DNA from: a bacterium F11 | GTDB taxonomy: Bacteria > Elusimicrobiota > Elusimicrobia > F11 | Assembly (NCBI GenBank): GCA_002176905.1 | Contig: MSYE01000259.1 | Coordinates: 1 to 56,852, forward strand | Length of the DNA stretch: 56,852 nt | Direction of reading: 5' to 3' | Shown: positions 10,531 through 47,905 of the stretch, one piece after another | Layout of the letters: each line of letters begins with the position of its first letter | Position numbering within the stretch: the first letter of the stretch is position 1 | Translations under genes and position numbers: made by a program | Notes under the pieces: model-generated | What the model was told of the DNA's origin: nothing | The model's database searches: none | The model's input: only the letters and a program-made list of their open reading frames with translations

Positions 10531-11028
10531 TCACCGGTAGTTGGTGAATTGAAGGGGTATTCCGTAGTTTTTCCCTTTTAAAAGCTGAATGATGTTTTGG
10601 AGAACATCTTTGGATTTGGATGAGACTCGGATTTGATCTCCCTTGATCGAAGGCGTGACCTTCTCCTTTGATTTCTTAATATCAGCCACGATTTCTTTGG
10701 CTTTCTCTTGATTGAGGCCTTGCTGAATCTTCACTATTTGGCGGACCTTCCCTCCAAGTGAAGCTTCTTCTTTCTGAAAATCAAAGGCTTTAAGATCAAC
10801 TCCTCGTTTTGCTGCTCGCGATTGGAAAATCTGAACCACGCTCTTTAGTTTTCCTGTATCATCGGAATACAGTGTAATTTCATTTTTTTCTTTATCAATA
10901 TCCAACCGAGAAACACTTCCTCGAAAATCGAATCGAACCGATATCTCTTTGTTTGCAGTGTTAACCACATCGTCGATATATTGAAGATTCACTTCTGAAA
11001 CAATATCAAATGAGTATTCGTCAGCCAT
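10531..11028 (-). CDS. yajQ: YajQ-family nucleotide-binding protein
   Basis: 165 residues, the normal length for this family of small cytosolic two-domain proteins; members bind nucleotides, and some bind cyclic di-GMP. Recognisable blocks are SFDIVSEVN near the start, the SVRFDFRGS segment, QIFQSRAAKRGVD, GGKVRQIVKIQQGL, and the C-terminal GKNYGIPLQFTNYR. The start is firm: AGGAGG lies five bases before the ATG and overlaps the stop of the RNase H-like gene. With three HD-GYP proteins in the window, a c-di-GMP effector role is possible but unproven. Confidence 0.95.
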   Translation of the reverse strand: MADEYSFDIVSEVNLQYIDDVVNTANKEISVRFDFRGSVSRLDIDKEKNEITLYSDDTGKLKSVVQIFQSRAAKRGVDLKAFDFQKEEASLGGKVRQIVKIQQGLNQEKAKEIVADIKKSKEKVTPSIKGDQIRVSSKSKDVLQNIIQLLKGKNYGIPLQFTNYR

Positions 11029-11036
11029 CTTTCCTC

Positions 11037-11576
11037 CTAACTTTGCACTTGGCCTTTTGTCGGTTTTGCCTCGTTTATTGCCCGATTGGCCAATTTGTCT
11101 GCCATACTGAGTTTGGGATGTTCGCGGGGAACATGTGTAAATGTAACAGTTGAAAATCGCATCATTCTGTTTTTTACTTCTTGATAAAATTTGGCCAATT
11201 TTTCAGATTTTAAACTGTATTGGCCATTTAATTGTCGAACCAAAAGCTCACTGTCTAAAAAACATTCCACTTGCTCTGTGGTCACATCATAAGCCAAATC
11301 AAGCGCGAGAAGAAGAGCCCGGTATTCCGCCTCATTGTTGGTGCACTCTCCAATATATCGAAAATCTTGCGTGATTTTCTCATCTTGCTCGTCAAACAAG
11401 AGAGCGCCGATTCCGGAAGGGCCAGGGTTTCCCCGAGAAGCTCCATCTGTATAGGTCTTTATTTTCTGAATCTTTCTTGGCTTGGCCTTTCGCCTCTCAA
11501 TTTCCTCGAGAAGAAACTGTCGGACTTGATTGAGCTCGTCAAGTGAAGCTGATTTTAAATAAGATTTGAAATCCAT
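11037..11576 (-). CDS. RNase HI-like protein
   Basis: 179 residues. After a short helical N-terminal extension (residues 1-35) comes an RNase H fold with YTDGASRGNPGPSG (first Asp), NNEAEYRALL (Glu), FLDSELLVRQLNG (second Asp), and HVPREHP then MADKLAN (last Asp). All four acidic catalytic positions appear present. The family cleaves the RNA strand of RNA-DNA hybrids in replication and repair. The sequence is closer to the YpdQ/archaeal-like RNase HI group than to E. coli RnhA, so activity is likely but not certain. It lies 14 bases from the DUF3467 gene and is linked to yajQ. Confidence 0.88.
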   Translation of the reverse strand: MDFKSYLKSASLDELNQVRQFLLEEIERRKAKPRKIQKIKTYTDGASRGNPGPSGIGALLFDEQDEKITQDFRYIGECTNNEAEYRALLLALDLAYDVTTEQVECFLDSELLVRQLNGQYSLKSEKLAKFYQEVKNRMMRFSTVTFTHVPREHPKLSMADKLANRAINEAKPTKGQVQS

Positions 11577-26075: not shown

Positions 26076-26131
26076 GCGTCCTTTCCTACTGATCTCAAGT
26101 TTTTTGCATCGAAAAATCAATGCAAAATAAA

Positions 26132-26163
26132 AGGGGTCAGACCCCTAACCAAATCTGACCCCT
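26132..26163 (-). terminator. GGGGTCAGACCCC hairpin repeat, likely terminator of the giant gene
   Basis: GGGGTCAGA (26133-26141) pairs exactly with TCTGACCCC (26154-26162); 26132-26146 is also a palindrome on its own. On the minus strand, TTTTATTTT follows the stem, fitting Rho-independent termination of the giant gene. The GGGGTCAGACCCC string is a widely dispersed REP-like repeat in many bacterial genomes. Confidence 0.6.
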
Positions 26164-26222
26164 AGAGTTGTGACCACGTTATGTTACCCTTTTACAGGTA
26201 CATCCAATTTGACCCAACTCCC

Positions 26223-26250
26223 CTTAAGTTCGCCTTAAGACCAAGTTAAG
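26223..26250. promoter_or_regulatory. Three TTAAG boxes with 11-bp period
   Basis: CTTAAG (26223), CTTAAG (26234) and GTTAAG (26245) repeat with an exact 11-bp period, as in OmpR/PhoB-type binding sites. It lies between convergent genes, 15 bases beyond the giant gene's stop, so its target is unclear. Confidence 0.35.
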
Positions 26251-26264
26251 ATTTGGTGAAATTT

Positions 26265-29200
26265 TTATGCCTCATCAAGGGCCATTCGATAAGCTCGAAG
26301 CCGATCTCCCATGCGCCGCAGAGCAGTCCAACCCAAGTCTTTGAGGTGCGTCAGAATAACCCAAACCCGGCTAAGGGCTCCTGTGGCAAGGTATCCATCG
26401 GAATGAATGGTGGTAAGAGTGATGTCGTAATGGGTTTCTCCTTCCTCAAGGTCAATAAGCTCCTCAAGAACGGGCCCTGCTTCGCTATCCTTCTTGGCGT
26501 TTTCCCTAAAAACATGCAAAGTTTCATTGTAAGTTGGGATTCTTGACTCAGATTGCGAATCAATGTCACGGGCGTGAGCGAGATACACAAATTGGTGATG
26601 TTGCACTTTGTTCTCAATTGTTTTTCGATCGCGCGCGGCCAAATCGGTCTCAAAAACAATTCCAAGTTCGCTTTGAATTTTCTTTCTGTCACGTGTCAAT
26701 TCTGCCAAGAGGATATCAATCTCATCTATACTGATATCCGCACGCGCATGATAGATTCGGAATACTTTCGACTTGCCGCGGCGGGTTATCCTTAAGATAA
26801 GAACAAAGGTTTTCACAATGACCCCATTAACAACTTGTTTCACATTCTCTTTTAAAACAGCCATATTCAACAATCGAACATTTGGATTTTTTTCTTTTCT
26901 AATTTCTTCAACTTTATGGTTGAGGAATTGGGCCACACCCACTTTAACGGTTGGCGACAAATTGTCCAGTATGAGAGTTGAATCAGAATTTCCATTTTCT
27001 TTCTGGTATAACAAATCAGAAAAATTAATAAAGGGCAGAGCGGCAAAGGCAATGGCATCATTGGCGGAAAGAAGAGGAATAAAAATATTAAAAGCAACAA
27101 ATCCAAAAAGCGCTGTTAAAGCCATCAGCGCGGCCTGGGAATTGCCATTATCAACCTCAACCCGGGTTCCATCTCTTATAAATTTATTAACAACAACAGG
27201 TTCCCCTCCCGGTACCAATCGTTTATCCACAATGGAAACATCGTATCCGATCTGACTTCCGCCCTCCAACCGAACAGAACGGTGACCATTTATCATTTTC
27301 TGCCCCACCAGTTGATCTTGGTTGGTTAAAGCCACAACTCCTTCATCGGTATTGACATCGACATTTTCCATTTGGGCGGCACCACCAATAAACTCTTTCT
27401 CTCCATCAGATTTCACATTTTTAAAGAGTCCAGCTCGAAAAGTGGCGTGGTTATTATAGGTTGAATTGACATGGACACCATGAAAATTATTGAAGGTATC
27501 ATGACTTTGAACATTCCATAACACACCACCCACCACCCGTCCTTTGGCTTGATCAACTGATGCTTTTTTCCTTGGTCCCACATGAAAGTGATCTTCTGCC
27601 ACCACCAACGTATTGACCGCGCCAATATGATCCAGGTTTAACGTCACCCTTTTTCTTGGATTCGCACGGACTTCCAATCCCGGCAAAACCAAACCACCTT
27701 GACTAATAACCAAAGCCGGTCTTTTCTTTCCTTTTGTGATGATACGTCCGACTCTATCAAAGGTAACGTTCCCTTTTTGGAGTAATGCATTTATCTGCCT
27801 GGCTTTGTTTGGTGAATCAACAGACAGAACCAGGGGAATATGTCTATCTTGAGCTAACTTCTTTAACATCTTTTTCTCTTCAATCACATTTCTTAGTCCC
27901 ACAATGGGTCGGGAATCTTGTTCCCCATTAACGTCAATCTCATATTTTTTAAATCGAATACGGTTTTTCGCCGATGCCCCCGTAGCCATCCTAACCACAA
28001 TTGTTTTTCCATCTCCATGAATCATTGACTCTATCTGATTTTTTAACTCAAAGTCCAAATGAACCCCATCTTCAAGCTGGACCCGATTAAATTCTGGGAT
28101 TTCCAAGGAGACGTCTACCCTGATTTCTTTTTTTCCTTTGGATTCAATAAAGACCCGGTCCAAAACAACTCCTTTTTTGATAATGATACCCTTTATCTCA
28201 ACCGGACCATCCTCTGCCCCGGTATCGTGCATCCTCTCAATCTCCCCCGGCGTGAAATGCTTGAGTCCGAAATGTCGAATGGTTCCATTTCGGAGGATAA
28301 CGTTGTCTTCGATGACAACACCTTTAAAATGTTCGGCCTGGGTGTTGTTGAGATCTGTCACAGGAATAAACTTGGGGTGAGGACCTCTCTTATCAACTTG
28401 ATATTTCCCGTCAATATGTCTCCAATCGGCGGCCATGGCTTCATCTTGCCCTCCAATAACATTGACGTTTTCAAGGAAGACCTCTCCGCCGATGTCGGCT
28501 TTAAGAACCTTGGAATTATTAATATTTGTTTTTGATCCCAAAACCGACATGCGAATGTTACTTTGAACCAATTTCGCGTCATATCCCACTTTTGTTTGGT
28601 CCCCCACAACTGTTTCAGACACAACTGCTCCACTGCGAAGAAGGGAATTGCTCACATCGCTCCTAATCAATTCAACCCCTGACTCGATGATCACTTCCTC
28701 CTTCTCCCGTTTCGAGATATCTTCATCCCCTCTCACCCCTTTCGTTGTTCGGGCGGAAATAAAACTGTCCTCTATATAAACCCCGTCATCCACCTCAACC
28801 ACGGGATAGTCCTCAATTCCAAATTTTCCTCTTAAGATGACGGAATTGTTTCCAACGGAGAAGAGAAGTCCGGCTTTGTGAAAATCTGAATGTGTTGAAT
28901 CGTCTTGAAAATGGAACGGTTGCTCATCTTTATCCTCATCACTGTTGTGGTAAACATGCAAAACATAGGGATCCTCCGAACCAATCCGGGTATGGGCATC
29001 ACGAATGGTTTGATCCAATCCATTATTTTGATGATGATTTTGTTTAAACAAATGAAAGAGGGATCTTAAGGCCTTTTTATCTCCGATTTTTCCCAAAGCA
29101 TAAACCGCATTTTCCTGCCGAATAGGATTGTCCGTATCTCCCAGCGCTTCAATAAGATGCTCAAAAAGAGGTTCGTTTTCAGATGTAAAAAGTTTCTCAG

Positions 29201-32200
29201 CTGTGATAGCAACATTAGCTCCTCCCGCCTCAAATATTTCATGAAGGAATTCATCTTCAACCGCAACCTGAGCAAGATGGACCATCAGGGCAATAGTCTG
29301 TCGGATAGATTCATGATAGGAATTCAAGCGATCTGTATTTAATACGCGAAGATCACGAATTTTTCGAATGGGTTTCTCTTCAGCGGACAATTGTCCCAAC
29401 GCCATTGCCACATTGGCCAAATGATCAGGGTCATCCACAACAAGCTTTAAAAATCCCAAAAGATCCGCATCAGGATCCAAAATTGCAGATGTTCGATCCG
29501 TTCCATTTAAGTAACGAATCTCATATAGAAAAGAGTGCATGAGCTTGCTCAAACAAGGATCTCCTTTTGTGATTCGTTTAAGGGAAAAATGAAGAGTCCT
29601 TCTTAAACCCTGAGAGATTTTCGAATGATCTTGCCGCCATAACATCAATAGGTGATCATGTCCTCGAAGATCCCTCTCCATTCCCATTAACCAAGCCGCA
29701 TTCTCTTGTTGAATGGGATCGCCTTCATTCTGAAGCATCTTAATCAAATATTCTGCACTTGCCGCCGAACTTCCTTGGGCAACAATATTATCGGCAACAG
29801 CTCCTTGTATATCTTGAAGGATGCGGTTTGACCAATCAATTGCGGTTTCCCCTACTGAAACCCCCTCTTCATTTAGAAATTCGAATACCTCACTGGTAAA
29901 ATTCTTCCTTTCATCATCATTAAGCAAGCGAAAATCACGAATTGTATTAATGGGTTTTCTGTGGTTTCGTTGGAATCGCCCCATCAACCCAGCGATCATG
30001 GCGGTATCATGCTTACTGCTGGTGGAGCATGCCAAAAGTTCAAAAATACTGGTATTGGGATCATAAAGTTTTGATAAATCCTTCTTCTTTAAATGAGCAG
30101 GATAGCCAACCATCTCCAAAACCAAATAAATGATTTCAAATATAATGGGGTTCACATGCGCTTCATCGATCATCTCTCTCAGGCGTTCTTTCCCCACCTG
30201 GACAAGGTCACCAATCGTCATCCTCTCTTTTGTTTGAATTCTCTTTTCACCGAACCGAAGTATTCGGAGGCCTGATTCAACCTCTTCCAACTTTTTATCT
30301 AAGTACTGTCTCTTTCCCTGCTCCCATCCTTTCATGTGTTCAAAAAGTGTTTCCAAGGGTTGACTGCCGTCCACATCATGAAAATGATCAATCGCATCAA
30401 AAACAACACCGAGGAGATCCCTATCTTGGTTGTCTTCCCTTGCCTCTCCCAATAAAGAGCCTTTCCTTCGGTACTCCAACAAATCCCGAATGGTTAGAAC
30501 ATGACGGGTCTCCAGTACGATTCGGTTCAGGATTCCTTTAAGTCTATGAGCTGTTAATCCGGGATAGTGAGTCCAATCCGCTCGCTTCTGCCTTTCCATC
30601 TCATTTACAAGAATGTCCAAATCTTCATAATGGTCGACGTTCCAAAGATAACCCAGAAGACCAATGTCATCTGCATCTTTGATGTCACCGAACACCCAAT
30701 CCTCTATCTTCAGCCTCAATCCCATCTGATGGCGTTTTGATCCTAATCGCTCCCTTCCATATTCTCGCAATTGGCCAATCGTGGTGAGATGTTTTTCCGC
30801 TAACACTCTTTTCAAAAGGAAGCCTTTTAAAGCATCCAATTTCTTGGCCATGTATTCATCTCTTTGACCTGGTCCCTCTCGCATTCTTCGGAACAAGACG
30901 CTCATATCCTCTTGGGAGTCGCGTAAGCCCTCTCGGCGAATGGCATCATGAATCCATTGCGCAAAGTCTTGATCAATTCCCAACGACGGAGCCTTATCAA
31001 TAAGTTGGTCCCCAAGACGAGACACATCCTGTATGGTGCTCACCTGCATCTTCTTAACTCCTTTGGTCTCATCAACGAATCCCTGAAAAACACGAATATC
31101 GTCTTGGAGCTTGGGGTAGGTTGAACCTGCCCTCTGAATCATTAGATCCAACAGTTGATCAACCGGGGTATCCGGATCTCTCAGTTGATCTCTTGCTTGT
31201 GGGTCTCTCGAAAAATCAAATGCCATCGTCATGGCCGCTGAGGTTGTTGTCAGGTCCCAGTTTTGCGCCAGAACAAACCCCTTCATCACAAGCAATACAA
31301 TGGCAACAACCATCAAGAAAACCGCGATGATCGCTAGAACAATGACCATTTTCAAAAGGGTATTGAGAAAACCCATTTTTGGTGCGGCCTCAACAATGTA
31401 ATACAGATTGTCATCTTTGGTCATGATATTGTCTTCACTGTTTTTCAATTCAATAAATTGCGGAGCGACCCCCCCAATCGAACGTCTGTGGCTAACTTTC
31501 TGAAGTCGCCATTTCACCACCTTGAATCCGGCTTTGTTTAATTCGGCTTCCAACATGGGTCGGTCATATTGAACAACATGCGTTGCATTGGGGGAGCGAT
31601 CGCGAGGATTATAAGCAGCAGCAGAAAGGATTAATCTTCCTTTTCTCTTTTTTAACACACGTCGAAATTCTCTTAAGGCCTCTTGTTGATCATAATCTTG
31701 TTCAAATCCTTGGAGAGAAACGACTTTATCAACAGAATTTCTTGGTAAGGCCAAATGAAAAGGGCTCTGTTCTTCAAACCTGAGTTTCTCAAAAGGCTCC
31801 AACCCTTTAACTCTTCCCCTTTTCTCATTTCTTTCTTTTGCGGTCACGATCGCATCGGGGTCGGGATCGACTCCCAAGACCCTTCCTGTTTCCCCAACCG
31901 CACCAGCCATCAAAATGGCGCCGGCTCCTGTCGCTGTGGGAACATCCAACACAACATCGCCTTTTTCAAGAACCTGCCCCCCAGGAGCTCCGGAAATATA
32001 CTGATAACGGGTTTCGTGGATTTGGGCCGTTGTAAAACCGTATCCTTTCATTGTATGGAGGGACCCCACCTTGTGAAAGGGAAGCCGTCTCTCAAGAATT
32101 TGGATAGCTTGCCCCAAGACACATATTTTTCGATAAGCTTTCCGAAATTCCATGATCGCAGCCAATTGGGCACTGGATTCGTTTAAATTATCCCAAGCCG

Positions 32201-35200
32201 GGATAACTTCATCACGCAAAATATCCGTGTGGGCTTGCATTATTTGTTTCACATAATTGGAACTCAAAAAATCGAATTCTCCGTAGCGATCGACTTTTAG
32301 AATCATCCGGGCTTCGCGCATAATGAGGCTGTTCCCAAAAGCGTGATTAGAATCATTGGATCCAAAGTTTAAACTTTGCAAACGGCTCACCAATTCCCGG
32401 ACAGCCTCGGCATGGGGATTATTTTCAAATCCCAATACTGTTTCGGATGAAACATCGAACTCATCCGGCACATCGCCTTCAGCCTCTCTATCTTCCTCTA
32501 GTGTAAATCCATTCTGATATAGATGCGGTTCCAGGCCATTGGTATCCAGATTGGCTATAAGGGCTTGACGGGTTCCCATGGGACCATTGGCCAAGGTGAT
32601 CACTCTCTCATCAAGGTTTTGGGGTCTTTTGCCTCCAACCCAAACAGCCACACCCCCTTTTGTGACCACGCGATTCAACATGGCGATTTCGTGTTCCCCA
32701 TCTCCAATGGCCATTGTTCCTTCCCAAACAGCTTTGGGTCTCACATCAATTTCACCGGAAATTTTCTTGACCAAAAACTGCGTTTCTCGTGCCTTGTACC
32801 CGGGTTCACGATCCTCTCCTTCGTATATGATGTCGATTCCACGAAAACCAACTCTTTTTCCTGCCTCCCCATCATAACCAATGTTTATTGTTCGTTTGCT
32901 GGTTTCTGGGTCAAGGTGATTGACAACAAACGAGGTTGTATCAGACGGTTTTTCTGCTGTGTTGATGGCTATTTGCGCGCTAGGATATTTGATGGCTATT
33001 CGATCCATCAAGATCTTTAAGGAATTATCAATATCTTTTCCTTTTCCAATGAGGGTATTATCACGATCCACCACCAACAGCATCAGTTTTCTTCGTAACG
33101 CCTCTTCATCTTTCTGTTTTCTTTCTAACGTCACTTGTGAACCCACCAACGCTCTTCTGGTATTCAAATTGAAATGAAAATAGGGATGTTTCCCATGTCT
33201 TGTGGGGGTAAGAGACCGATTCTCTCTATACCAATTTCTCTTCATCTTTCTGAAAAATCTCCATGCTCGTCCATTAACCTCTTTATCGTTAACAATCCGA
33301 AACTGAACTGATTCGATTTGGTGGTGTTCCAAATTCTTAAGAAGATGGGTAAACAACCAAGTTGTCAAAGAGGTTCCTTGGTAAATTGGAGAAACAACCA
33401 AATCTTGCAAGGTATCTTTTGTGTCCTCGACGCCCACCATGGCATAGGCGACAAGGTTACCGTTGGAATCGACAACCGCAAAGCTCAAGTTATCCATAAA
33501 AGGAACAGCGGCGTTTTGATCTGGCCTATAAGACAAGGACAGCTGTCTGAGTTTGGAATATTGATCGCGTTTTCGAAAAAGAAGTTCGTGGGTTAATGGA
33601 ACAATCTGTAATGTTTGCCCCAAAACAACACGTTGGTTGGGCCCAAATTCGCTGGATGGATAATTATCCGCTCGAATGGTTTCTTTCCCCCCATGGAACA
33701 TGCCATCGGATGGCGCTTCTCCCCACCACAATGCCCTTATATCAGACTTGTTGTGAAAGATAGTGTAAGCGTTGAGAAAAACCATGGACCACAAGAAATA
33801 CGATACCCATTTCAAAATTCCCCAAAATTCGTTCATGGCGGCACGAATAAAATCGGGATCAAGGTAAAAATTGATTCCAAGGACAATTAAGATAAGAGCC
33901 CCAACCAACAATAGGCCAATATGGGGGAAGAGGCCCATAAGGGCAATGCGACGAATTTCGGTTTTTGTGTATATTCTTTCTTCGTCGAAGGGAACACCAA
34001 TTCTGCTCAGTTCTCGTCCCCTTAAAAAAGCCCGAAAAAGACTTTCCCCGTTAAGATGAAGAGCGGCGTGGTTTAAAGGAGCCGTAAACTTTTCGGCCTT
34101 TGGATCTTGGAAGCGGTTCCACAACACAGCCGCATGACCTGGTTCATGAAGGTAGGCGTATATCATAAAAGCCAAAACCCGAATTAGCAAAACAAGAAGA
34201 ACATATCCCCCAAAATTGATAAGTGTTGCCCCTTCAATGTTCTGGTATTCATACTTAAGAACTGTAAATCCAATCCCCAAAAAAGCGGCAGCCAAGTTAA
34301 CATTTTTATCTCTTCTTTTTATGTTCTCATGACTTGAAGTCCGATCAATAGCCCATTTCATAAGAAGACCGAAAAAGAAGAGAACAACAAGGGCAATAAT
34401 ACACGCCTGAAAGAAAACCATCCAATTCGCTGTTAAGGGAAGTGTGAACATAATTGAGAAAGTGGCAATCCCGAAAGCCCATACCCAGGTATTGTAGATG
34501 GCCTCTTCATTCGTCTCTGGTGCCAAATCCTGTTCTTGTTCATCTGACCGTGGATGAACCTTTAATGGTTTAACCGGCAATGTTCGTTGTTCAATCACTC
34601 CGGAACGGTGAACAACAGTTAAGATTCGATTATCGGGTGAGAAAGCCAATCTGTTTATCCCAACTTGGCCTCTCCACCTAGCCAACTCCACTCCTTGCTC
34701 AACATTCCAAATCTTCACCACCCCTGATCCGGAAACAGAAGCCATCAACTTCCCATCAGGACTGATATCAACGGACACAACAGGAGCGGCTGGATCCGGT
34801 TCCCTTATCAGTGATTGATGATCTTCCCCCCTTTGACCAAAGGTCAACTCCCCACTTCTAAGAGCTTGGAGGGTGAGTCCCGATGGCCTGTGATAGGCCA
34901 AGGCCGTATACTCACCGTCAAATCCCTTAATGCGTGTTTGACTACGGTTCCTTACTGCATTCCACAAAAGGAATTGACCATTTTCATCCGAAATGGAAAT
35001 TTCATCCTCATTCTCTTCAAAACCAAGGCCAACAATGGAATTTTTACCAACCTTGGTCTCGGTTTCAATTTTCGCGGAATCCACATCCCATAAAACCACA
35101 CGGCCCTTAGAATCCCCTGTGACAAGCAATCGGTCATCTGAAGAAAAGGCCATAACCGATATCATCTCGTTATGCTTTCTAAGTTTCTTTGGTGTGTCAT

Positions 35201-38200
35201 CGCCCACCGTCCAAAGATAAACATTTCCCCGAGCATCTCCAATGGCCAGACGGGTTCCATCGGAATTAAATACCAAACACATAACAGGGCGATCCCCCAA
35301 GGTCAAAGTGTCATAAGGCTTATTTTTATTTGTGTCCCAAATTAGAACAGAGGCCATTCTTCTAGTAATCCCTTCATCATAAATCTCTGAGCCAAGGGCG
35401 AGAAGGTGAGGTTGGGTGGGATGGGCTGCCATGGAGTGAACAATGTTACCAACAGCTTGAATGGTCTTCGGAAGTTTTGATTCATGGGTATGGGCCAGAG
35501 CATTCTGATTAACAGAAGGGGGTCCTCTTTTGTGCAGAAGAGACGGAACCTTTTTTATTTCTTGGATTCGGCGTTTTCCAAATTCTCGAAGGATTTTGAG
35601 TATGATTTGAATAGCTGATCTTAGTACTCTTAAACCAAGTTGGATTTTTCTCAAATGATAATAATCCTTTAAATTCCAATGAATCACGGTCCCATCTTCC
35701 CCACCCGATAAAAGAAAAGTCCCGTTCGGACCAAAAGAAACTGTATTAACCTTACCTGGATGTGCTCTTAATACAACCCGCTCCTTGGCTCGTTGCGTTT
35801 CCCAAAGGCGAACCGTGCCATCGGATCCGGCAGAGACAAGATTCGTTTCCTTAGGACTCAATTGGATATCTTGAACCGGCCCCTTGTGTCCATTTAGGGG
35901 AATGACCCTTTCCACACTGGGGTACAACAATATTTGATTTGATCCATTTGTAACGGCCATAAAACCCGTTTTTGATCTACTGTGAAACCGCGTGGCTCCG
36001 GATAGGTTTACCACGCCAAATGATTCGACCAATTCCCCAGATCCCAAATCAAAAGTTTGAACATTGCCCTTTCTATCGTAAACCTTAAGATTTTCTTCTT
36101 CATCAAATCCCAATCCAAGAACGGGTTCTCCAGTTGGTTCAATCAAGTCGCGTTCGATCCAACCTCCCAACTCAATTATTCGTATTTGCCCTGTAGAGGT
36201 TCCTCCAACCAAAATATCTTTTTCCACATTGAATTCTAGGTTGGTGATCCGACCAGACCAATTGGCAACCAGTCCTGATTCCCCCGTCGTTATATCGGTT
36301 ATATCAACCCTGGCCTCTGATCCCTCGCCGTAAGCAACCGCCATAAATTCCCCAATACCGCTGAAAGCAATCGCTGTTACCGGTCCATCGAAGGACTCTC
36401 TCATGTTCATCATGCGAGCCGTCATAAACCTGTCCCATTTTAGTCTCATCCAATTTCGGATATCTGAGAGAGGATCCCATGGCGCATCAAGTATGGGAAC
36501 AGTGATGAGATCGGTTCCTCTTGCCAAACACAATTCTGTTCCATCCTCATTCAGAGCAATAGCTTCAACTGAATCTGGTGTTTGGTTAGGAAAGAACGTG
36601 ATTATACTGTCATGGTCATGACCTTCCTCTTCGTAAAATTTGGTGCCTGAACCCAAATCATGAACCATCACTTCACTTTTATCAACAAGAAGGGCCAATC
36701 TGTTTCGCTCTTGGGAAGGGAAAGAAATATCAATCGACGAAATTCCTTTTGCCGGAACAATGACATGACTTGCTTTCTTTCCGGATGCCACGGTTGGTTC
36801 CACAATGGTAACGGTTCTCGAATTTTCCTCCATATCAATTTCAAATATTTGGACATGATCCTCCCCAATTTCAGTTACCCCCCATTTCTCACCTAACTTG
36901 TCCAATTTCCCAAGATCGAATGTCGGACTCTTACTCTCTCCATCCCCATTCTGTTGTCTTTCTAATAAAACAGCGGATAATCCGGGCTGAGCTGTGGCCA
37001 ACAAACTTTCATCTGGACTTACGGCCACCTGGTGAACAGGAGTGCTTGTGACGAGGAATGAAGTCAAAATTGGAGTATTGGCCCTAAGATCCCAGACGCC
37101 GACTCCGCCATTGGTTTCACCCGCCACGCTAAAATAAAGGTGGGTTCCATCGCGATTAAATCTTATAGAAGTCACCTCGCACTTCTTACCAGGGATCTCC
37201 TCTCTCTCATCTGATGGCAATTCCAATTTGAGTCCATCAGCAAAATAAAAATTCGTCGGTCTTTCAAATTGGATAATGCTTCCATCATCGTACCCAACAA
37301 ACAAGGAAGGGTTCTCACCAGGTTGATCTGGCTGCAAGGCCATGGCAGTTGGATTTCCCTGAAGATCAAATTGCTGGGTGTGAACATAATTACCGACCAG
37401 GCGCTTATCTCCAGAATTTTCGATCCTCTGAATATTTTCAACAATGTTCGTATGATTCTTATCTTCCCTTAAGACAACAACATGATCCCCCATCAAATCC
37501 ATCGTAATGTCTTTGACGTCATACCCATTGTCGGCTTGCATCAGCATCTGATGAAGGGGATCCTCATTTGATTGAAGATCACGAACCTCAAGCTGAATCC
37601 TTTTCCCGCGCGGATAGGTCACCGCCACGGTATTTCCCATTCCGCTTCTGGCCATGTGCCCAATGGGATTCGGGGTTTGGAAGATTTTGTTCTCTTCATC
37701 TTCTGATTCAGGTTTCTCTACTTTTTGAAAACTTGATATCTGGTAGACAACGGCAAGAATCAAGGCGAGGATATTTAACACCAAACCAACACCACAAAAA
37801 TTAATTGGAATATTTGAATTAGACGGATTGATTATTAATGTCAATAAATTCAATCCCAAATTAACAAGAAGGATAAAAGATACAAACAGGGTCAAATTAC
37901 GAGGCCTTAGAATGAACTCCAAAAAGGTACTCTCTTCCGATTTTGAAGCTCTCAGCCCAAACGGTGTAAATTCGTAACCGGATTCTCTGATTTCATTTAA
38001 TTGTTGATTGGTACGCCTTATAATGTCTTGGGTATGCGGATACTTATCCTCTTCTTCTAGAATTTGGCGCGCTTCTTCTTGAAAGCGGCCTTCTCTCTTT
38101 TTTACAACCTCGCTGATGGTGTCAAAATCAAAAAGCCAGTTGATATTGGCTTGCACCAATGCATCATATCTTTGAACATGATCGGTGTTGATTTGTGATG

Positions 38201-41200
38201 GATTTCCGAAAACGGTTCGAAATTTATCCATAAAATCGATATAGGGACTAATTTCCATTCTTTCTGCGACTTGAGCAAATGCCAGAAATTGGGCAAAACT
38301 GGGGCCATCGGGTGCCTCAATTGAATGCAATCCACGCGACATGGTCCAAACTCGATACGGGGGATTGGTTGCTTCAGCAAAGATGGCCAAGGTGGCTTGT
38401 CGATCAACGTTCAAATCTGTTGACACGCTATTATAGGAATCGTCAATTAACTTCATTTGAAAATCGCTAATGATGTCATTAAAGATATCCCAGGCGATAT
38501 CTTGGATCATTTCATCTCTTGATTTGGATTTGAGCATTTCTGCCCGTTCGGGATTAACGAGAAAATAACGCATATCAGATCGAACAGAATTCATGATTTC
38601 ATAAACATTCTGAGCAAGGAACATTATTGCCAATGGAGAAACAACACATCCAGCGTGGGAAAAGGATTCAATCGGATCTTCTGGGCCATCTGGAAGTGGT
38701 TTGGAAATCCAAATTCTCGCATGGTCGGATTCATTTATACTGGGGATGCTCCCGATGATCGGCACAACATCAAAATAGGGGTTTTTTCTTCGAGGGCCAG
38801 ACTGAGGAAGAATAACAATTCCGTGTTCAGATAGATGCTCATTTAAAAAGGCTACTTTTCTTTCACGGGTTTCTAAATATTCATCTGACGATGACGTAAG
38901 GACCCGTTTGAGATAGGTGGATAATCGCCAGTCACCGGTCACATCAAGAGATCGTTTGTCGAGCTCATCAACTTTTTGAGCGGGTATCTCTTTGAATTCT
39001 TCAGTTAAAAATTTCGAGCGATTCAGTACTATTGCAATTGACTTTGCCAAGCGATTGACCTCTGGACTCGGTTCCTTATTTGAAACAGATTGGAATCCAG
39101 AAACAGACGTCACCAACGGGATCATGGCCATATCAGAAACATGGGATACGATCCCTTGTGTGACTTCGGGATTGAGGGCACCAGAAATCAAAACAAAAAG
39201 AAGAGAGGCCGCTAGAACTGGTCCGTATTTTTTTGTTTGTGTCCAAGCGAAATCCCCGAGGGTCTTGAGGGGTTCCCAATTGGGATTGGAAATTTTTCCA
39301 AGTTGAACATGAACCTGAACCAACTCCCCTGTGGAGGTAAAATCACCCGAGACATTTGCTCCTCCAGCTTGAAGGGTTGCTGAATGAGCCTGAACATCAC
39401 GAACCGATACATCAATTGACTCGGTTTCCGGTGATACTGTTTTCATGACTTTTCGGATTTGATCAAGACTCCTGTCCATAAAAGCCGATACCAATCCATA
39501 CAAAGTCGCCATTGAAACGCGGCTAGCACCCATAGCAAGATCGGCCAAAAACAGCTTTTCACCAGCAAAAAGTTTGTCGAGAGGGGTTTTCTCTTGGCTG
39601 AAAACACTTAGAGGAGACGTTCCAGAAGAAGAATTGAGTTTTGTGATTTTGGGAGTAAAAATGAAAGTTCTTGGCCCGCCTGCCGGCGAGGCAGGTTCTT
39701 GGTTCTTGGTTCTTAGTTGGTTTAAGATTCCGGAGGAGTGGAATCCTCCTGTTACAAGGATAGCGACCTTGGCATTGTGGGTGCCCATGGCTTCGATGAG
39801 ATTCTCGGTCATGGCATTGTCGCGGGCTTCAGCAAGTCGATAGAACAATTGACAATTGTCGATTGACGATTGACCATTTAAGGAAATCATTAATGAATCC
39901 CTATTTTTCGATGGGTAAGGGTCATTGGTCAATTCCTGGTATTCCTCCCACTCCTCTTTCGTTAACTCAAAATCCACAAGTTTTCCCATCAAATACAGAT
40001 GGCGAGAGGTTTCCACCAATTTTTTTTCTATTGGGGATTGAATGAGAGAAACAACGATGGAGTTCTCCAACGACTGGACATCTCTTAATAACTCTTCGGC
40101 TTGGATGCTTTGGGTGAGGATGATGTATTGGATGTAGTTTTCAAACTGGGGAAAATGGGAGAGAGTAACATTGCTATTCTCACAAAGAGTCTTAACATGG
40201 GCATAGAACTCAGCTGGAGAAATGTGTCCGGATCGAAGGGCCACACTGAATTGGATGAGATGTTGGGATTGATTGGGGGGCAACTTTCTCACCAACGATT
40301 CGATGAGATATTTTCTCTCGTTTTCAACGCGATCAAAATCAATCGTCTCTTCCAGATGGAGTGCCTCGATGAAACGATGGACCGATTCACTTACCACTTC
40401 ATTTTGAGAGGTTAAATATTGAACATATTTTCCAAATGACAATTCTCCTGTTTGGTGTGATTCCACTGTTTTGTCAAAAGCAAGAAGCCGTTGATTGAAG
40501 GTGTGATATTTTTTCTGTTTGTGAGATTCTTTGAGACTTTTGATTTGTTTCTTGATGATGTCTCGGCTGCCAAAGGTCTTTTTTACAACCCCCACATGCT
40601 CCTCATACAACTTCTGATCATCCACACCCACAAAAACAGGAATCGGTTCGGGATGCGTCAATCCCGTATGAACCGGTCCTGAAATACGGTGTTCCCTTAA
40701 CAAATAATCCGCAACGGTCTGTGTTATGTTGGGAATAGAAAGATCTCGATAAAGTGAAAGATCCATTTCTCCAAACGCCCCCTCGAGTGCGACCAAGTCT
40801 ACTTTGCCAGTGTCAATAAGAGATCGGAGGGCTTCTGCAATGTTGGTTTGGGCTTCCTCGTTTTTGTGGATGTCTTGGATGTGAAGAAGAATCTTATCGG
40901 ATTTTCCATCTAATTCCTGGCGAAGATTTCCAAATTTGGAAAGGTAGGAATCAAAAAAAAGGGAATCCTCTTCCTGAACCTGAGTTTGGTTCCGTAACAG
41001 AGTCAGATTCAAAGGTGAAACTTTTTTGAGTGGGAAAACGGGAGACGCTTGAGGAATATCGATTGGAAGATGGGCCAATTGGCTATTGTTGGTTTGAATT
41101 CTTTCTTTTCGTTCAGCCCAAAAATTGGCTTCAACCGCATGCGGAAAAAGAACATTGGTCACCAACATCACAACAACAACCATCGGTGAAAGTATTTTTA

Positions 41201-41222
41201 TAGAAGGTGATCTTTTTCTCAT
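26265..41222 (-). CDS. Giant multidomain membrane/secreted protein (about 4985 aa)
   Basis: One uninterrupted frame. I use the ATG at 41222, which follows a promoter by a short leader and opens a good signal peptide; a TTG at 41258 would add 12 residues. In order: signal/anchor (1-35); a TIKI/EreA-like module (about 65-500, HIQDIH 114-119, GGFH 492-495); a membrane helix near 675; an unassigned segment; two helices at about 1103-1160; WD40-like propellers (about 1190-2215); membrane spans with the M50-like zinc motif HEPGH at 2359-2363; a GNAT-like domain (about 2545-2665); HAD-like (DRDNT 2719-2723, GDGEHE near 2840); methyltransferase-like (about 3080-3255); a helix near 3300; HEAT-like helices (to about 4070); a beta-helix (about 4115-4660); a helix near 4715. 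Motifs are seen directly; folds are inferred. Function unknown. Confidence 0.88.
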   Translation of the reverse strand: MRKRSPSIKILSPMVVVVMLVTNVLFPHAVEANFWAERKERIQTNNSQLAHLPIDIPQASPVFPLKKVSPLNLTLLRNQTQVQEEDSLFFDSYLSKFGNLRQELDGKSDKILLHIQDIHKNEEAQTNIAEALRSLIDTGKVDLVALEGAFGEMDLSLYRDLSIPNITQTVADYLLREHRISGPVHTGLTHPEPIPVFVGVDDQKLYEEHVGVVKKTFGSRDIIKKQIKSLKESHKQKKYHTFNQRLLAFDKTVESHQTGELSFGKYVQYLTSQNEVVSESVHRFIEALHLEETIDFDRVENERKYLIESLVRKLPPNQSQHLIQFSVALRSGHISPAEFYAHVKTLCENSNVTLSHFPQFENYIQYIILTQSIQAEELLRDVQSLENSIVVSLIQSPIEKKLVETSRHLYLMGKLVDFELTKEEWEEYQELTNDPYPSKNRDSLMISLNGQSSIDNCQLFYRLAEARDNAMTENLIEAMGTHNAKVAILVTGGFHSSGILNQLRTKNQEPASPAGGPRTFIFTPKITKLNSSSGTSPLSVFSQEKTPLDKLFAGEKLFLADLAMGASRVSMATLYGLVSAFMDRSLDQIRKVMKTVSPETESIDVSVRDVQAHSATLQAGGANVSGDFTSTGELVQVHVQLGKISNPNWEPLKTLGDFAWTQTKKYGPVLAASLLFVLISGALNPEVTQGIVSHVSDMAMIPLVTSVSGFQSVSNKEPSPEVNRLAKSIAIVLNRSKFLTEEFKEIPAQKVDELDKRSLDVTGDWRLSTYLKRVLTSSSDEYLETRERKVAFLNEHLSEHGIVILPQSGPRRKNPYFDVVPIIGSIPSINESDHARIWISKPLPDGPEDPIESFSHAGCVVSPLAIMFLAQNVYEIMNSVRSDMRYFLVNPERAEMLKSKSRDEMIQDIAWDIFNDIISDFQMKLIDDSYNSVSTDLNVDRQATLAIFAEATNPPYRVWTMSRGLHSIEAPDGPSFAQFLAFAQVAERMEISPYIDFMDKFRTVFGNPSQINTDHVQRYDALVQANINWLFDFDTISEVVKKREGRFQEEARQILEEEDKYPHTQDIIRRTNQQLNEIRESGYEFTPFGLRASKSEESTFLEFILRPRNLTLFVSFILLVNLGLNLLTLIINPSNSNIPINFCGVGLVLNILALILAVVYQISSFQKVEKPESEDEENKIFQTPNPIGHMARSGMGNTVAVTYPRGKRIQLEVRDLQSNEDPLHQMLMQADNGYDVKDITMDLMGDHVVVLREDKNHTNIVENIQRIENSGDKRLVGNYVHTQQFDLQGNPTAMALQPDQPGENPSLFVGYDDGSIIQFERPTNFYFADGLKLELPSDEREEIPGKKCEVTSIRFNRDGTHLYFSVAGETNGGVGVWDLRANTPILTSFLVTSTPVHQVAVSPDESLLATAQPGLSAVLLERQQNGDGESKSPTFDLGKLDKLGEKWGVTEIGEDHVQIFEIDMEENSRTVTIVEPTVASGKKASHVIVPAKGISSIDISFPSQERNRLALLVDKSEVMVHDLGSGTKFYEEEGHDHDSIITFFPNQTPDSVEAIALNEDGTELCLARGTDLITVPILDAPWDPLSDIRNWMRLKWDRFMTARMMNMRESFDGPVTAIAFSGIGEFMAVAYGEGSEARVDITDITTGESGLVANWSGRITNLEFNVEKDILVGGTSTGQIRIIELGGWIERDLIEPTGEPVLGLGFDEEENLKVYDRKGNVQTFDLGSGELVESFGVVNLSGATRFHSRSKTGFMAVTNGSNQILLYPSVERVIPLNGHKGPVQDIQLSPKETNLVSAGSDGTVRLWETQRAKERVVLRAHPGKVNTVSFGPNGTFLLSGGEDGTVIHWNLKDYYHLRKIQLGLRVLRSAIQIILKILREFGKRRIQEIKKVPSLLHKRGPPSVNQNALAHTHESKLPKTIQAVGNIVHSMAAHPTQPHLLALGSEIYDEGITRRMASVLIWDTNKNKPYDTLTLGDRPVMCLVFNSDGTRLAIGDARGNVYLWTVGDDTPKKLRKHNEMISVMAFSSDDRLLVTGDSKGRVVLWDVDSAKIETETKVGKNSIVGLGFEENEDEISISDENGQFLLWNAVRNRSQTRIKGFDGEYTALAYHRPSGLTLQALRSGELTFGQRGEDHQSLIREPDPAAPVVSVDISPDGKLMASVSGSGVVKIWNVEQGVELARWRGQVGINRLAFSPDNRILTVVHRSGVIEQRTLPVKPLKVHPRSDEQEQDLAPETNEEAIYNTWVWAFGIATFSIMFTLPLTANWMVFFQACIIALVVLFFFGLLMKWAIDRTSSHENIKRRDKNVNLAAAFLGIGFTVLKYEYQNIEGATLINFGGYVLLVLLIRVLAFMIYAYLHEPGHAAVLWNRFQDPKAEKFTAPLNHAALHLNGESLFRAFLRGRELSRIGVPFDEERIYTKTEIRRIALMGLFPHIGLLLVGALILIVLGINFYLDPDFIRAAMNEFWGILKWVSYFLWSMVFLNAYTIFHNKSDIRALWWGEAPSDGMFHGGKETIRADNYPSSEFGPNQRVVLGQTLQIVPLTHELLFRKRDQYSKLRQLSLSYRPDQNAAVPFMDNLSFAVVDSNGNLVAYAMVGVEDTKDTLQDLVVSPIYQGTSLTTWLFTHLLKNLEHHQIESVQFRIVNDKEVNGRAWRFFRKMKRNWYRENRSLTPTRHGKHPYFHFNLNTRRALVGSQVTLERKQKDEEALRRKLMLLVVDRDNTLIGKGKDIDNSLKILMDRIAIKYPSAQIAINTAEKPSDTTSFVVNHLDPETSKRTINIGYDGEAGKRVGFRGIDIIYEGEDREPGYKARETQFLVKKISGEIDVRPKAVWEGTMAIGDGEHEIAMLNRVVTKGGVAVWVGGKRPQNLDERVITLANGPMGTRQALIANLDTNGLEPHLYQNGFTLEEDREAEGDVPDEFDVSSETVLGFENNPHAEAVRELVSRLQSLNFGSNDSNHAFGNSLIMREARMILKVDRYGEFDFLSSNYVKQIMQAHTDILRDEVIPAWDNLNESSAQLAAIMEFRKAYRKICVLGQAIQILERRLPFHKVGSLHTMKGYGFTTAQIHETRYQYISGAPGGQVLEKGDVVLDVPTATGAGAILMAGAVGETGRVLGVDPDPDAIVTAKERNEKRGRVKGLEPFEKLRFEEQSPFHLALPRNSVDKVVSLQGFEQDYDQQEALREFRRVLKKRKGRLILSAAAYNPRDRSPNATHVVQYDRPMLEAELNKAGFKVVKWRLQKVSHRRSIGGVAPQFIELKNSEDNIMTKDDNLYYIVEAAPKMGFLNTLLKMVIVLAIIAVFLMVVAIVLLVMKGFVLAQNWDLTTTSAAMTMAFDFSRDPQARDQLRDPDTPVDQLLDLMIQRAGSTYPKLQDDIRVFQGFVDETKGVKKMQVSTIQDVSRLGDQLIDKAPSLGIDQDFAQWIHDAIRREGLRDSQEDMSVLFRRMREGPGQRDEYMAKKLDALKGFLLKRVLAEKHLTTIGQLREYGRERLGSKRHQMGLRLKIEDWVFGDIKDADDIGLLGYLWNVDHYEDLDILVNEMERQKRADWTHYPGLTAHRLKGILNRIVLETRHVLTIRDLLEYRRKGSLLGEAREDNQDRDLLGVVFDAIDHFHDVDGSQPLETLFEHMKGWEQGKRQYLDKKLEEVESGLRILRFGEKRIQTKERMTIGDLVQVGKERLREMIDEAHVNPIIFEIIYLVLEMVGYPAHLKKKDLSKLYDPNTSIFELLACSTSSKHDTAMIAGLMGRFQRNHRKPINTIRDFRLLNDDERKNFTSEVFEFLNEEGVSVGETAIDWSNRILQDIQGAVADNIVAQGSSAASAEYLIKMLQNEGDPIQQENAAWLMGMERDLRGHDHLLMLWRQDHSKISQGLRRTLHFSLKRITKGDPCLSKLMHSFLYEIRYLNGTDRTSAILDPDADLLGFLKLVVDDPDHLANVAMALGQLSAEEKPIRKIRDLRVLNTDRLNSYHESIRQTIALMVHLAQVAVEDEFLHEIFEAGGANVAITAEKLFTSENEPLFEHLIEALGDTDNPIRQENAVYALGKIGDKKALRSLFHLFKQNHHQNNGLDQTIRDAHTRIGSEDPYVLHVYHNSDEDKDEQPFHFQDDSTHSDFHKAGLLFSVGNNSVILRGKFGIEDYPVVEVDDGVYIEDSFISARTTKGVRGDEDISKREKEEVIIESGVELIRSDVSNSLLRSGAVVSETVVGDQTKVGYDAKLVQSNIRMSVLGSKTNINNSKVLKADIGGEVFLENVNVIGGQDEAMAADWRHIDGKYQVDKRGPHPKFIPVTDLNNTQAEHFKGVVIEDNVILRNGTIRHFGLKHFTPGEIERMHDTGAEDGPVEIKGIIIKKGVVLDRVFIESKGKKEIRVDVSLEIPEFNRVQLEDGVHLDFELKNQIESMIHGDGKTIVVRMATGASAKNRIRFKKYEIDVNGEQDSRPIVGLRNVIEEKKMLKKLAQDRHIPLVLSVDSPNKARQINALLQKGNVTFDRVGRIITKGKKRPALVISQGGLVLPGLEVRANPRKRVTLNLDHIGAVNTLVVAEDHFHVGPRKKASVDQAKGRVVGGVLWNVQSHDTFNNFHGVHVNSTYNNHATFRAGLFKNVKSDGEKEFIGGAAQMENVDVNTDEGVVALTNQDQLVGQKMINGHRSVRLEGGSQIGYDVSIVDKRLVPGGEPVVVNKFIRDGTRVEVDNGNSQAALMALTALFGFVAFNIFIPLLSANDAIAFAALPFINFSDLLYQKENGNSDSTLILDNLSPTVKVGVAQFLNHKVEEIRKEKNPNVRLLNMAVLKENVKQVVNGVIVKTFVLILRITRRGKSKVFRIYHARADISIDEIDILLAELTRDRKKIQSELGIVFETDLAARDRKTIENKVQHHQFVYLAHARDIDSQSESRIPTYNETLHVFRENAKKDSEAGPVLEELIDLEEGETHYDITLTTIHSDGYLATGALSRVWVILTHLKDLGWTALRRMGDRLRAYRMALDEA
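39672..39718. repeat. Palindromic repeat inserted in frame in the giant ORF
   Basis: CCTGCC (39679-39684) and GGCAGG (39690-39695) flank GGCGA, next to a TTCTTGGTTCTTGGTTC run. In frame it encodes RTKNQEPASPAGG at about residues 502-517, right after the GGFH motif. The run matches the argJ-upstream element (AACTAAGAACCAAGAAC against AACTAAGAACCAGGAAC). Confidence 0.6.
39846..39879. repeat. Second repeat insertion in the giant ORF
   Basis: On the minus strand this reads AATGGTCAATCGTCAAT, then CGACAAT, then TGTCAATT. Without the seven middle bases and with one change, it equals the right arm of the wecB-wecA element (13238-13263). In frame it encodes NGQSSIDNCQL at about residues 447-458. Confidence 0.6.
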
Positions 41223-46357: not shown

Positions 46358-47905
46358 CTACTTCGAATTGATTTTTCGACTTAAAACGTCGACCAGATTC
46401 TCAATTGTGGCCTCTGGTGCCAGGAGGGGCTTCTGAAAATGGTTCTCAATTAATACTTTTCGCGTAGTTGGGCCGATGGCCACCATTTTTGTCTTTTTCT
46501 GGAGGGAACGGATCTCCGACTTTGAGAAAAATCGGAGAAAGTTTCTTACGGTGGATGCTGAGGTAAACGTGACAGCATCCACTCCTTTTAAAATCAACTT
46601 CTTTACCCCTTTAGGCGGGGGAGGTGCCATTTGATTTCGATAAATTCCCAACTCCTTTACACGGGCTCCTTTTTTCATGAGTCCATAAATAATGTCGCGT
46701 GGCCCTCCTTCAACACGGGGGATCAGAATTCTTTTTCCCCGAATGTTTGTTAGTCCTTCCAGAATTCCTTCGGCTCCAAATTTCTTTGCCTGTTGGGTTA
46801 CTCTCCAACCCCTGTTTTCGATGACCTGGGCAGTTTGAGGCCCCACAGCACAAATCTTTGGACCAAACTTATCTTGGTTGTATCCATGCCGTTTGAGGCC
46901 CGCATGAAAAATGCGAACCGCGTTGGCACTTAAGAAAAGAACCCAATCAAAACGGGAAGCTTCTTGGGAAAAAGTACGATAAAAATCATTTAACCTGGGA
47001 TTATCCCAAATGGGTTGAATCTCAATAGCGGGACACAAAATGACCTCGGCTCCCTTATCCTGAAGAAGGCGCGTGATACGTGAGGCTTGGAACTCCGAAC
47101 GGGTGATAACAATTCTCTTACCAAGAAGGGGTTTTTCCTTCTGAATCCAATTCAACATTCTGGTCAACTTTCCGACCCAACCCACAATGATAATAGCCGG
47201 CGCCCTTAACGTTCTCTTCTTAAATTCTTTCAATGATTCTTTCAAGGTTGTCTGAATGATGCGCTGATGAACAGTTGTCCCCCATTCAATAGCCACAACA
47301 GGAAGAGTTTGAATCCAACCGGAAAGGAGCAATTGTTGCCGAATGAAACCCCAACGACTAACTCCCATCAAAATCACCAGGGTTCCTCCCTTTGGAAGAA
47401 GGGACCAGTTCACTCCAGGGATTTCATGTCTCCCTTTTCCCTCGTGACCAGTCAAAAAGGTTACATAAGAGGCCCAACGCCGATCACTGACCGGAATCCC
47501 AGCATACCCTGGCACGGCAATAAGCGAGGTGACACCAGGTACAACTTCAAAAGGGATGTGGGCCCGAGAAAGGGCTTCCATTTCTTCTCCACCCCGGGCA
47601 AAAACAAGAGGATCTCCTCCCTTCAATCGAACCACACGGTTCCCTTTTCGGGCTTCTTGAATGAGAATCCGATGAATTCCTCCTTGGGTTTTTTTAATGG
47701 AAGAACCATGGGACGCACCGGGTCCTCTTTTCCCAACAGAAATGATCCGCGCTTTTGTCGAATAAACCAAATATGGATTAACCAAGGCATCCATGACAAT
47801 CACATCCGCTGAGCGAATCAAATCTTCCCCGCGAACCGTGATGAGCCCCGGATCACCCGGCCCCGCTCCCACCAAATACACTTTCCCTTTTTTCTTTTGT
47901 TTCAA
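46358..47905 (-). CDS. cobA-hemD: Uroporphyrinogen-III C-methyltransferase / synthase fusion
   Basis: 515 residues, two enzymes in one chain. Residues about 1-245 are the SAM-dependent methyltransferase (GKVYLVGAGPGDPGLITVRG, VRLKGGDPLVFARGGEE, VVPGVTSLIAVPGYAGIPV, then LTGHEG), making precorrin-2 for siroheme or cobalamin. Residues about 260-510 are HemD, which closes hydroxymethylbilane to uroporphyrinogen III (GKRIVITRSEFQASRI, then VTFTSASTVRNFL). The start is TTG with GAGGGA just upstream in the 14-base gap after hemC. The fusion is common in bacteria with hemA-hemC clusters. Confidence 0.95.
   Translation of the reverse strand: MKQKKKGKVYLVGAGPGDPGLITVRGEDLIRSADVIVMDALVNPYLVYSTKARIISVGKRGPGASHGSSIKKTQGGIHRILIQEARKGNRVVRLKGGDPLVFARGGEEMEALSRAHIPFEVVPGVTSLIAVPGYAGIPVSDRRWASYVTFLTGHEGKGRHEIPGVNWSLLPKGGTLVILMGVSRWGFIRQQLLLSGWIQTLPVVAIEWGTTVHQRIIQTTLKESLKEFKKRTLRAPAIIIVGWVGKLTRMLNWIQKEKPLLGKRIVITRSEFQASRITRLLQDKGAEVILCPAIEIQPIWDNPRLNDFYRTFSQEASRFDWVLFLSANAVRIFHAGLKRHGYNQDKFGPKICAVGPQTAQVIENRGWRVTQQAKKFGAEGILEGLTNIRGKRILIPRVEGGPRDIIYGLMKKGARVKELGIYRNQMAPPPPKGVKKLILKGVDAVTFTSASTVRNFLRFFSKSEIRSLQKKTKMVAIGPTTRKVLIENHFQKPLLAPEATIENLVDVLSRKINSK

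Follow-up and report, generated by a model that had tools for sequence, protein, structure and literature searches.

A giant open reading frame of an Elusimicrobiota bacterium as a probable member of an exported protein family with fixed ends and an exchangeable middle

Giant open reading frames (ORFs) of the Omnitrophota and Elusimicrobiota are reportedly the subject of a 2023 preprint by West-Roberts. Published work has also made giants of these phyla known (passages in PMC10066038, PMC11573180 and PMC12057145), and the cited part of PMC10066038 presents the Omnitrophota giant genes as showing, for the most part, little conservation and having no clear function. Here we consider one such gene in a 56,852-nucleotide stretch of Elusimicrobiota DNA (contig MSYE01000259.1 of assembly GCA_002176905.1; hereafter the window). 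The window giant, itself a very long ORF of the kind described for these phyla, occupies 26265..41222 on the minus strand and encodes 4,985 amino acids (aa) in a single open frame. Judged from sequence, it and its relatives have a common N-terminus, a variable middle, a kept kind of C-terminal end, a poverty of cysteine, purifying selection where this was tested and polymorphism of the genomic site. Our best reading, to which we assign a probability of roughly 0.6, is that the giant is a member of a polymorphic, Sec-exported modular family that has fixed ends and an exchangeable middle and works at or outside the cell envelope.

The chain opens with a putative signal peptide, recognised by eye (aa 1-32, MRKRSPSIK...HAVEA; 41127..41222, minus strand), followed by the family motif NFWAERK. 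Across 124 giants W35 is kept in 87% and R38 in 89%, and a hydrophobic run lies within the first 60 residues in 105. The N-terminal module (N-module; aa 28-560; 39543..41141, minus strand) carries the conserved residues D117-x-H119, E147-G148, R467 and G492-G-F-H495, and its predicted alpha/beta fold, with a parallel sheet at its core, belongs to the TIKI/ChaN/EreA superfamily. The TIKI/EreA-like domain named in a first-pass annotation of the window thus stands, with its active-site residues conserved. Enzymes of the TIKI family use a quartet of two histidines and two glutamates (passage in PMC6254334). When the residues of the N-module are equated with this quartet by motif order, not by superposed coordinates, D117, H119, E147 and H495 resemble it, with Asp replacing the first Glu (that of ExH); in the 124 giants D117 is conserved in 98%, H119 in 98%, E147 in 99% and H495 in 100%. 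We infer that the N-module is an active hydrolase of esterase or peptidase type located near the membrane. Against PF04187 the window's N-module scores 19.4 bits, below the gathering score of 27.7, and some relatives (for example P0027, P0039 and P0050) have been assigned PF04187 by precomputed annotation.

Querying proteins of about 2.7 to 8.7 thousand residues with residues 28-560 retrieved 274 at E<=0.001, the window giant included, of which the best 120 are considered below as the listed giants. The module was present in 124 of 128 proteins examined, beginning inside the first 143 residues. Of 247 Elusimicrobiota genomes 58 contain it, as do 141 of 285 genomes of Omnitrophota, both counts being based on only about 4-5 scored candidates per genome. 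Among 37 N-module loci in genome contigs, 36 belong to Elusimicrobia or Candidatus Obscuribacterium and one (L036, genome G011) to Omnitrophota. Thirteen genomes, which were reached through such loci and therefore all contain the module by choice, hold between 6 and 67 matches apiece, a tally that includes fragments and assembly duplicates. With ORFs told apart by contig and ORF length, distinct family members, some short or cut at contig ends, number 28 in G181, 21 in G113, 14 in G135 and 28 in G045, corresponding to 7.8%, 15.0%, 8.2% and 8.6% of the DNA (genome sizes rounded). In Omnitrophota, the N-module ORFs among the matches listed reach 35,113 codons (G303:C37:183537, L178, whose end is unreadable owing to masked bases) and include standalone ones of about 520-600 codons. 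Nine of these standalone Omnitrophota proteins (L168-L176) are single-domain, span about 520-550 codons and end in Glu in eight cases; they possibly resemble the ancestor of the giant head. Two loci, L001 and L034 (JAJAPZ010000001.1), are mirror-image halves of one contig, each with a copy of one giant; a palindromic assembly artefact is the probable cause, and some of the counts for G001 are doubled by it.

A second constant lies at the other end of the chain. The window giant closes with GDRLRAYRMALDEA (R at -7, L at -4, A at -1; 26268..26309, minus strand), and its score, under a matrix built from 155 giants other than the window's, was reached by 2 of 278 control tails, or by 7 of 278 when the last residue was left out. 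Alanine is the final residue in 96 of 124 giants (the window's included, and some truncated by contig ends) and in 41 of 49 further complete giants, 13 of which repeat the first set while the other 36 comprise 34 ending in Ala and 2 in Gln; among control ORFs, Ala is last in 12 of 125 neighbours and in 19 of 278 from a broader sample. Among 173 tails, 70 have R at -7, 82 have I or L at -5, 63 have A at -4, 91 have Q or S at -2 and 132 have A at -1. As aligned, then, the C-terminus is mostly RxxAxxA-like, with a terminal Ala that in one clade is often Gln. This clade, G010/G113 (among L073-L136), is the exception: its 24 closed tails end in Gln in 12 cases (QQ, NQ), Ala in 10, Gly in one and Phe in one. 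Eleven further Elusimicrobiota loci, mostly divergent relatives, yielded five closed tails, all ending in Ala, and 20 long Omnitrophota ORFs yielded 17, of which two were dropped for masked bases and the remaining 15 comprise 13 Ala and 2 Val. None of the nine standalone N-module proteins ends in Ala, and the signal is therefore tied to gianthood and not to the N-module. All four Ala codons are used at the last position, roughly as inside genes, which rules out a nucleotide-level signal at the last codon and places the constraint on the protein.

An iterated profile picked out a longer C-terminal module of about 115 residues. Of 124 tails 39 carried it, compared with 1 of 2,341 internal windows; among 48 additional tails, a dozen of them already in the first set, the count was 24, compared with 1 of 812 internal windows. 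N-module ORFs account for 29 of its 32 matches in seven genomes (E<=0.1, assembly duplicates included); two G002 ORFs and a 195-codon G001 ORF that carry it have no N-module among the matches listed. The tail of the window giant gave no match to this longer module.

Between these ends, the middles, or cargo, differ almost completely from giant to giant and are often like cytosolic enzymes. In an all-against-all BLAST comparison of the parts after residue 600, the median giant had a match in any other for 12.5% of its cargo. In 79 of the 120 listed giants, by hand count, Pfam assigns domains besides PF04187; their types are strikingly diverse and include 4-alpha-glucanotransferase, glutamate dehydrogenase (GDH), triose-phosphate isomerase (TIM), SecA, sigma factor region 4, AAA ATPases, HEAT, TPR and WD40. 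Judged by catalytic motif patterns, the state of the cargo appears mixed, some patterns being intact (GGxKGG plus GxGNVG in 2 of 3 GDH cargos, Walker A in 5 of 5 AAA cargos, HExxH in 3 of 3 M48 cargos) and others not being found (GH77 AEDLG in 0 of 6 giants, with RxDH in 4 of 6; the PP2C pattern in 0 of 4; the ADK P-loop in only 1 of 3). Two ortholog pairs, L074/L099 and L080/L100, are 88% identical, the latter aligned over 3,729 of 4,754 codons, and every 400-codon block in which over 80 codons align gives a ratio of nonsynonymous to synonymous substitution rates (dN/dS) of 0.09-0.34; purifying selection thus acts along the aligned length of both. More broadly, of 12 giants examined from G010, 8 are matched at 74-88% identity by one of 21 giants of G113, some of them over part of the length because pieces over 20 kb were cut, and L086 (G001) and L087 (G002) are 27% identical across more than 3,000 columns.

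TIM illustrates the state of captured domains in another way. In L074, P0034 and P0039, TIM-like pieces lie as partial, out-of-order segments within one giant, a hint that captured domains may have been duplicated or permuted internally. The idea that giants are polyproteins holding the sole copies of housekeeping enzymes is unsupported for TIM: of the 11 genomes (among 13) with a match to it, 9 have that match in an ORF of just 163-355 codons. G008, G009 and G010 show partial matches within long ORFs, with the N-module seen only in that of G010; no short TIM ORF was seen in G008 and G009, for which the incompleteness of metagenome-assembled genomes is a possible explanation.

Cysteine is scarce throughout the cargo. 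It makes up 0.16% of the residues in the cargo of 124 giants and 0.91% of those in 195 ORFs nearby; the corresponding values for the window giant and its 23 window neighbours are 0.22% and 0.83%. The depletion is even from residue 560 up to the C-terminus. At paired positions in the 23 best segments aligned between cargo and ordinary ORFs, some of them orthologous duplicates, 38 cysteines are confined to the ordinary ORF and 4 to the cargo (sign test, 6e-8). Such poverty matches the expectation for a chain living outside the cytoplasm, and points to action of the giant in the envelope or beyond it. The many hydrophobic segments of the giants are left unexplained by this argument.

The site of the window giant is itself polymorphic. 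Its boundaries, set by synteny and Pfam match, are an inositol monophosphatase (PF00459; 41506..42321, minus strand) and a nucleoside diphosphate kinase (NDK; PF00334; 25542..26075, plus strand). Genome G001 (Candidatus Obscuribacterium magneticum) retains the gene order of the window on both sides, with orf542, orf406b, orf319, hemC, hemD, subtilase, orf406 and inositol phosphatase on one and NDK, response regulator, kinase, FIST, GAF-HD and argC on the other; hemA, orf284 and orf461 of the window are unmatched at the G001 site. Between inositol phosphatase and NDK, G001 has about 200 bases and no giant. In G002 the inositol phosphatase is followed by a different family member, whose N-module is 29% identical and which extends for 1,250 codons or more before its contig stops, and the G181 contig ends at this very site. 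The NDK-side gap contains, by eye, GGGGTCAGACCCC-type inverted repeats, which we take to be REP-like, both with a giant (window 26076-26264) and without one (L049, about 10900-11100).

The middle of the window giant was the centre of the first-pass annotation, which had read it as a fusion of catalytic and scaffold parts in an architecture it could not place, perhaps a self-contained envelope machine. Its frame of some 4985 codons proved to be exactly that, running uninterrupted on the minus strand from an ATG at 41222 to a stop ending at 26265, with no stop and no N within its 4,985 codons; the database version has 4,972 aa and starts 13 residues later. The fusion of the two types of part in one chain is likewise real. 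Profile matches bear out four of the named parts, all on the minus strand: WD40 repeats forming propellers (aa 1341-2248; 34479..37202), a GNAT-like domain (aa 2577-2660; 33243..33494; PF00583, 3.6e-6), a class I methyltransferase domain (aa 3086-3202; 31617..31967; PF13847, 2.6e-13) and HEAT-like repeats (aa 4021-4063; 29034..29162; PF13646, 2.7e-9). The other three, on the same strand, drew no match to their families in profile searches of the window giant. These are an M50-like core, a hydrophobic stretch (33723..34238) recognisable by its HEPGH motif (aa 2359-2363); a HAD-like stretch (aa 2712-2900; 32523..33089) recognisable by short motifs (DRDNT at 2719, GDGEHE at 2840); and a beta-rich stretch (aa 4100-4690; 27153..28925) that looks hexapeptide- or beta-helix-like to the eye.

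The GNAT-like domain also matches TIGR01575 (rimI) at 2.3e-7, under that profile's cut-off. Its acetyl-CoA loop reads QGTSLT (aa 2615-2620) where R/QxxGxG/A is expected, and the HAD-type loop reads GDGEHE in place of GDGxND. Both parts look damaged, and a self-contained machine is therefore unsupported. To treat the giant as a singular machine is mistaken; the location assumed in the same proposal, in the envelope or outside, is probable given the signal peptide and the cysteine poverty. A search of the whole length listed ten proteins, namely the giant itself, six giants aligned over the N-terminal part only and three others with WD40-type domains. When residues 2230-4985 were compared with 247 Elusimicrobiota genomes, the methyltransferase part alone was matched, to ORFs of 260-345 codons in 13 genomes. 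Members retain the N-module and the type of C-terminal end but not the middle, and the particular combination of domains is therefore not the point: the giant is one member of a multi-copy family with differing middles.

The surroundings are those of a bacterial chromosome, with hemA-hemC-hemD, argC, argJ, glyA, folD and ndk around the giant; among 247 Elusimicrobiota genomes the window's serine hydroxymethyltransferase is nearest to those of G181 (76% identity), G216 (70%) and G045 (69%). At 46358-47905 (minus strand), adjoining hemC and hemA, tetrapyrrole methylase and uroporphyrinogen-III synthase domains are fused. Another giant frame, open for at least 2,237 codons, runs off the contig end at 1-6711 (minus strand); it shows, by eye, Ig-like-looking repeats (...GTAxDN...FTYDxTxPT) and had no Pfam match at 0.001.

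Several other explanations have to be weighed. The chance that separate genes were joined in error is vanishingly small, since, although the window consists of a single contig, one frame is open across 15 kb, it begins with the family N-terminus and closes with a family-like C-terminal motif, and such giants recur 274 times in the protein collection and at 37 loci on contigs of separate assemblies. Alternatively, the chain could be a polyprotein that is exported and then cut into working units, either by the N-module as a TIKI-type peptidase or by a tail-specific protease recognising the Ala end. The TIKI fold does include a peptidase, RRSP (passage in PMC6254334), the active-site residues of the N-module are conserved in 98-100% of 124 giants, the free C-terminus is conserved and many unrelated domains stand in series; however, cargo is hardly shared among members, so that a common cleavage code is not evident, although cut-site motifs were not searched for, and we consider this explanation unlikely.

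Two further possibilities concern what the middle is for. The giant might be a surface-held or delivered multi-effector directed against neighbouring or prey cells, with a logic like that of MARTX or polymorphic effectors. Fixed ends around a variable centre, copy-number expansion and site polymorphism would suit such a weapon, a TIKI-fold domain is also a MARTX effector (passage in PMC6254334), and Omnitrophota giant ORFs have been linked to symbiosis or predation (passage in PMC10066038). We nevertheless hold it doubtful, for the immediate neighbours of the window giant are an inositol phosphatase and NDK with no obvious immunity gene, a Pfam scan of ten pieces of the giant returned neither an autoprocessing cysteine protease nor RTX repeats, and the cargo families named in the 120 listed giants are mostly metabolic, regulatory or scaffold. 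A bulk coat grown by accretion, in which captured genes drift as filler and selection acts on length, solubility and export alone, would account for cargo that is nearly unique to each giant, for the missing GH77 AEDLG, PP2C and ADK P-loop patterns and for the altered GNAT and HAD-type loops of the window giant. It is improbable in view of the low dN/dS in blocks of two ortholog pairs, of the intact GDH, Walker A and HExxH motifs and of the close G113 counterparts of 8 of 12 G010 giants.

Under the preferred reading, of an exported modular family with fixed ends, the signal peptide would direct the entire chain through the inner membrane, and the N-module would act there as an esterase- or peptidase-type hydrolase close to the membrane. 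A component for anchoring, secretion or tail processing would recognise the C-terminal motif. The middle would be a swappable payload of binding scaffolds (WD40, HEAT, TPR) and enzyme-like domains, with motifs partly intact and partly altered, acting at the surface or on neighbouring cells; the overall logic would be that of a chassis with fixed ends and interchangeable cargo. More tentatively, the two phyla may have in common a system by which domains of cytosolic type become secreted: genes or parts of genes would be captured between a fixed export/hydrolase head and an Ala end signal and purged of cysteines, and the giants, tens per genome, would form an exchangeable external proteome. If so, capture between fixed ends would constitute a novel type of modular secretion system. 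Should the preferred reading hold, as much as 15% of the DNA in one genome examined, G113, would be devoted to one exported protein family, and domain types thought to be cytosolic would be used outside the cell. A common head, a common end and cysteine poverty supply a shared logic for many giants, and the question of their function becomes testable.

Set beside known systems, the N-module is close to the TIKI/ChaN/EreA superfamily (PF04187; ChaN 2g5g, EreC 6xcq, HopBA1 5t09, RRSP) in predicted fold, in the His-Glu pair and in the second His, and differs from it in having Asp as the first Glu, in a long helical part that its model places between core strands, and in being joined to thousands of residues of variable cargo. 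The published giants of Omnitrophota and Elusimicrobiota, one of which, from Velamenicoccus, has 39,678 residues (PMC10066038), come from the same phyla and share very large ORFs, membrane helices and a presumed surface role; the cited parts of those papers describe most Velamenicoccia giants as poorly conserved, with few annotated domains, and do not mention a common N-module, a C-terminal Ala motif, cysteine poverty or cargo exchange. We found no publication naming the N-module giant family among the papers listed in the literature searches, a scope from which preprints were excluded. MARTX proteins are not known to use a Sec signal peptide for secretion, whereas the window giant has a putative Sec-type one, and the Pfam scan of its ten pieces, made at E<=1, found no MARTX-type autoprocessing cysteine protease or RTX repeats. 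We claim no MARTX kinship; the likeness lies in a giant chain with kept ends and interchangeable central domains, among which a TIKI-fold member is possible (passage in PMC6254334). Giant1-5 of Apilactobacillus similarly place 6% of the genome in giant extracellular proteins, although these are encoded by five consecutive genes in another phylum (passage in PMC12863079). Polymorphic toxin systems combine a constant trafficking N-terminus with a variable remainder in many copies (passage in PMC3482391); the window giant differs from them in lacking an obvious adjacent immunity gene, and in the giants it is the centre that varies while the C-terminal end is kept.
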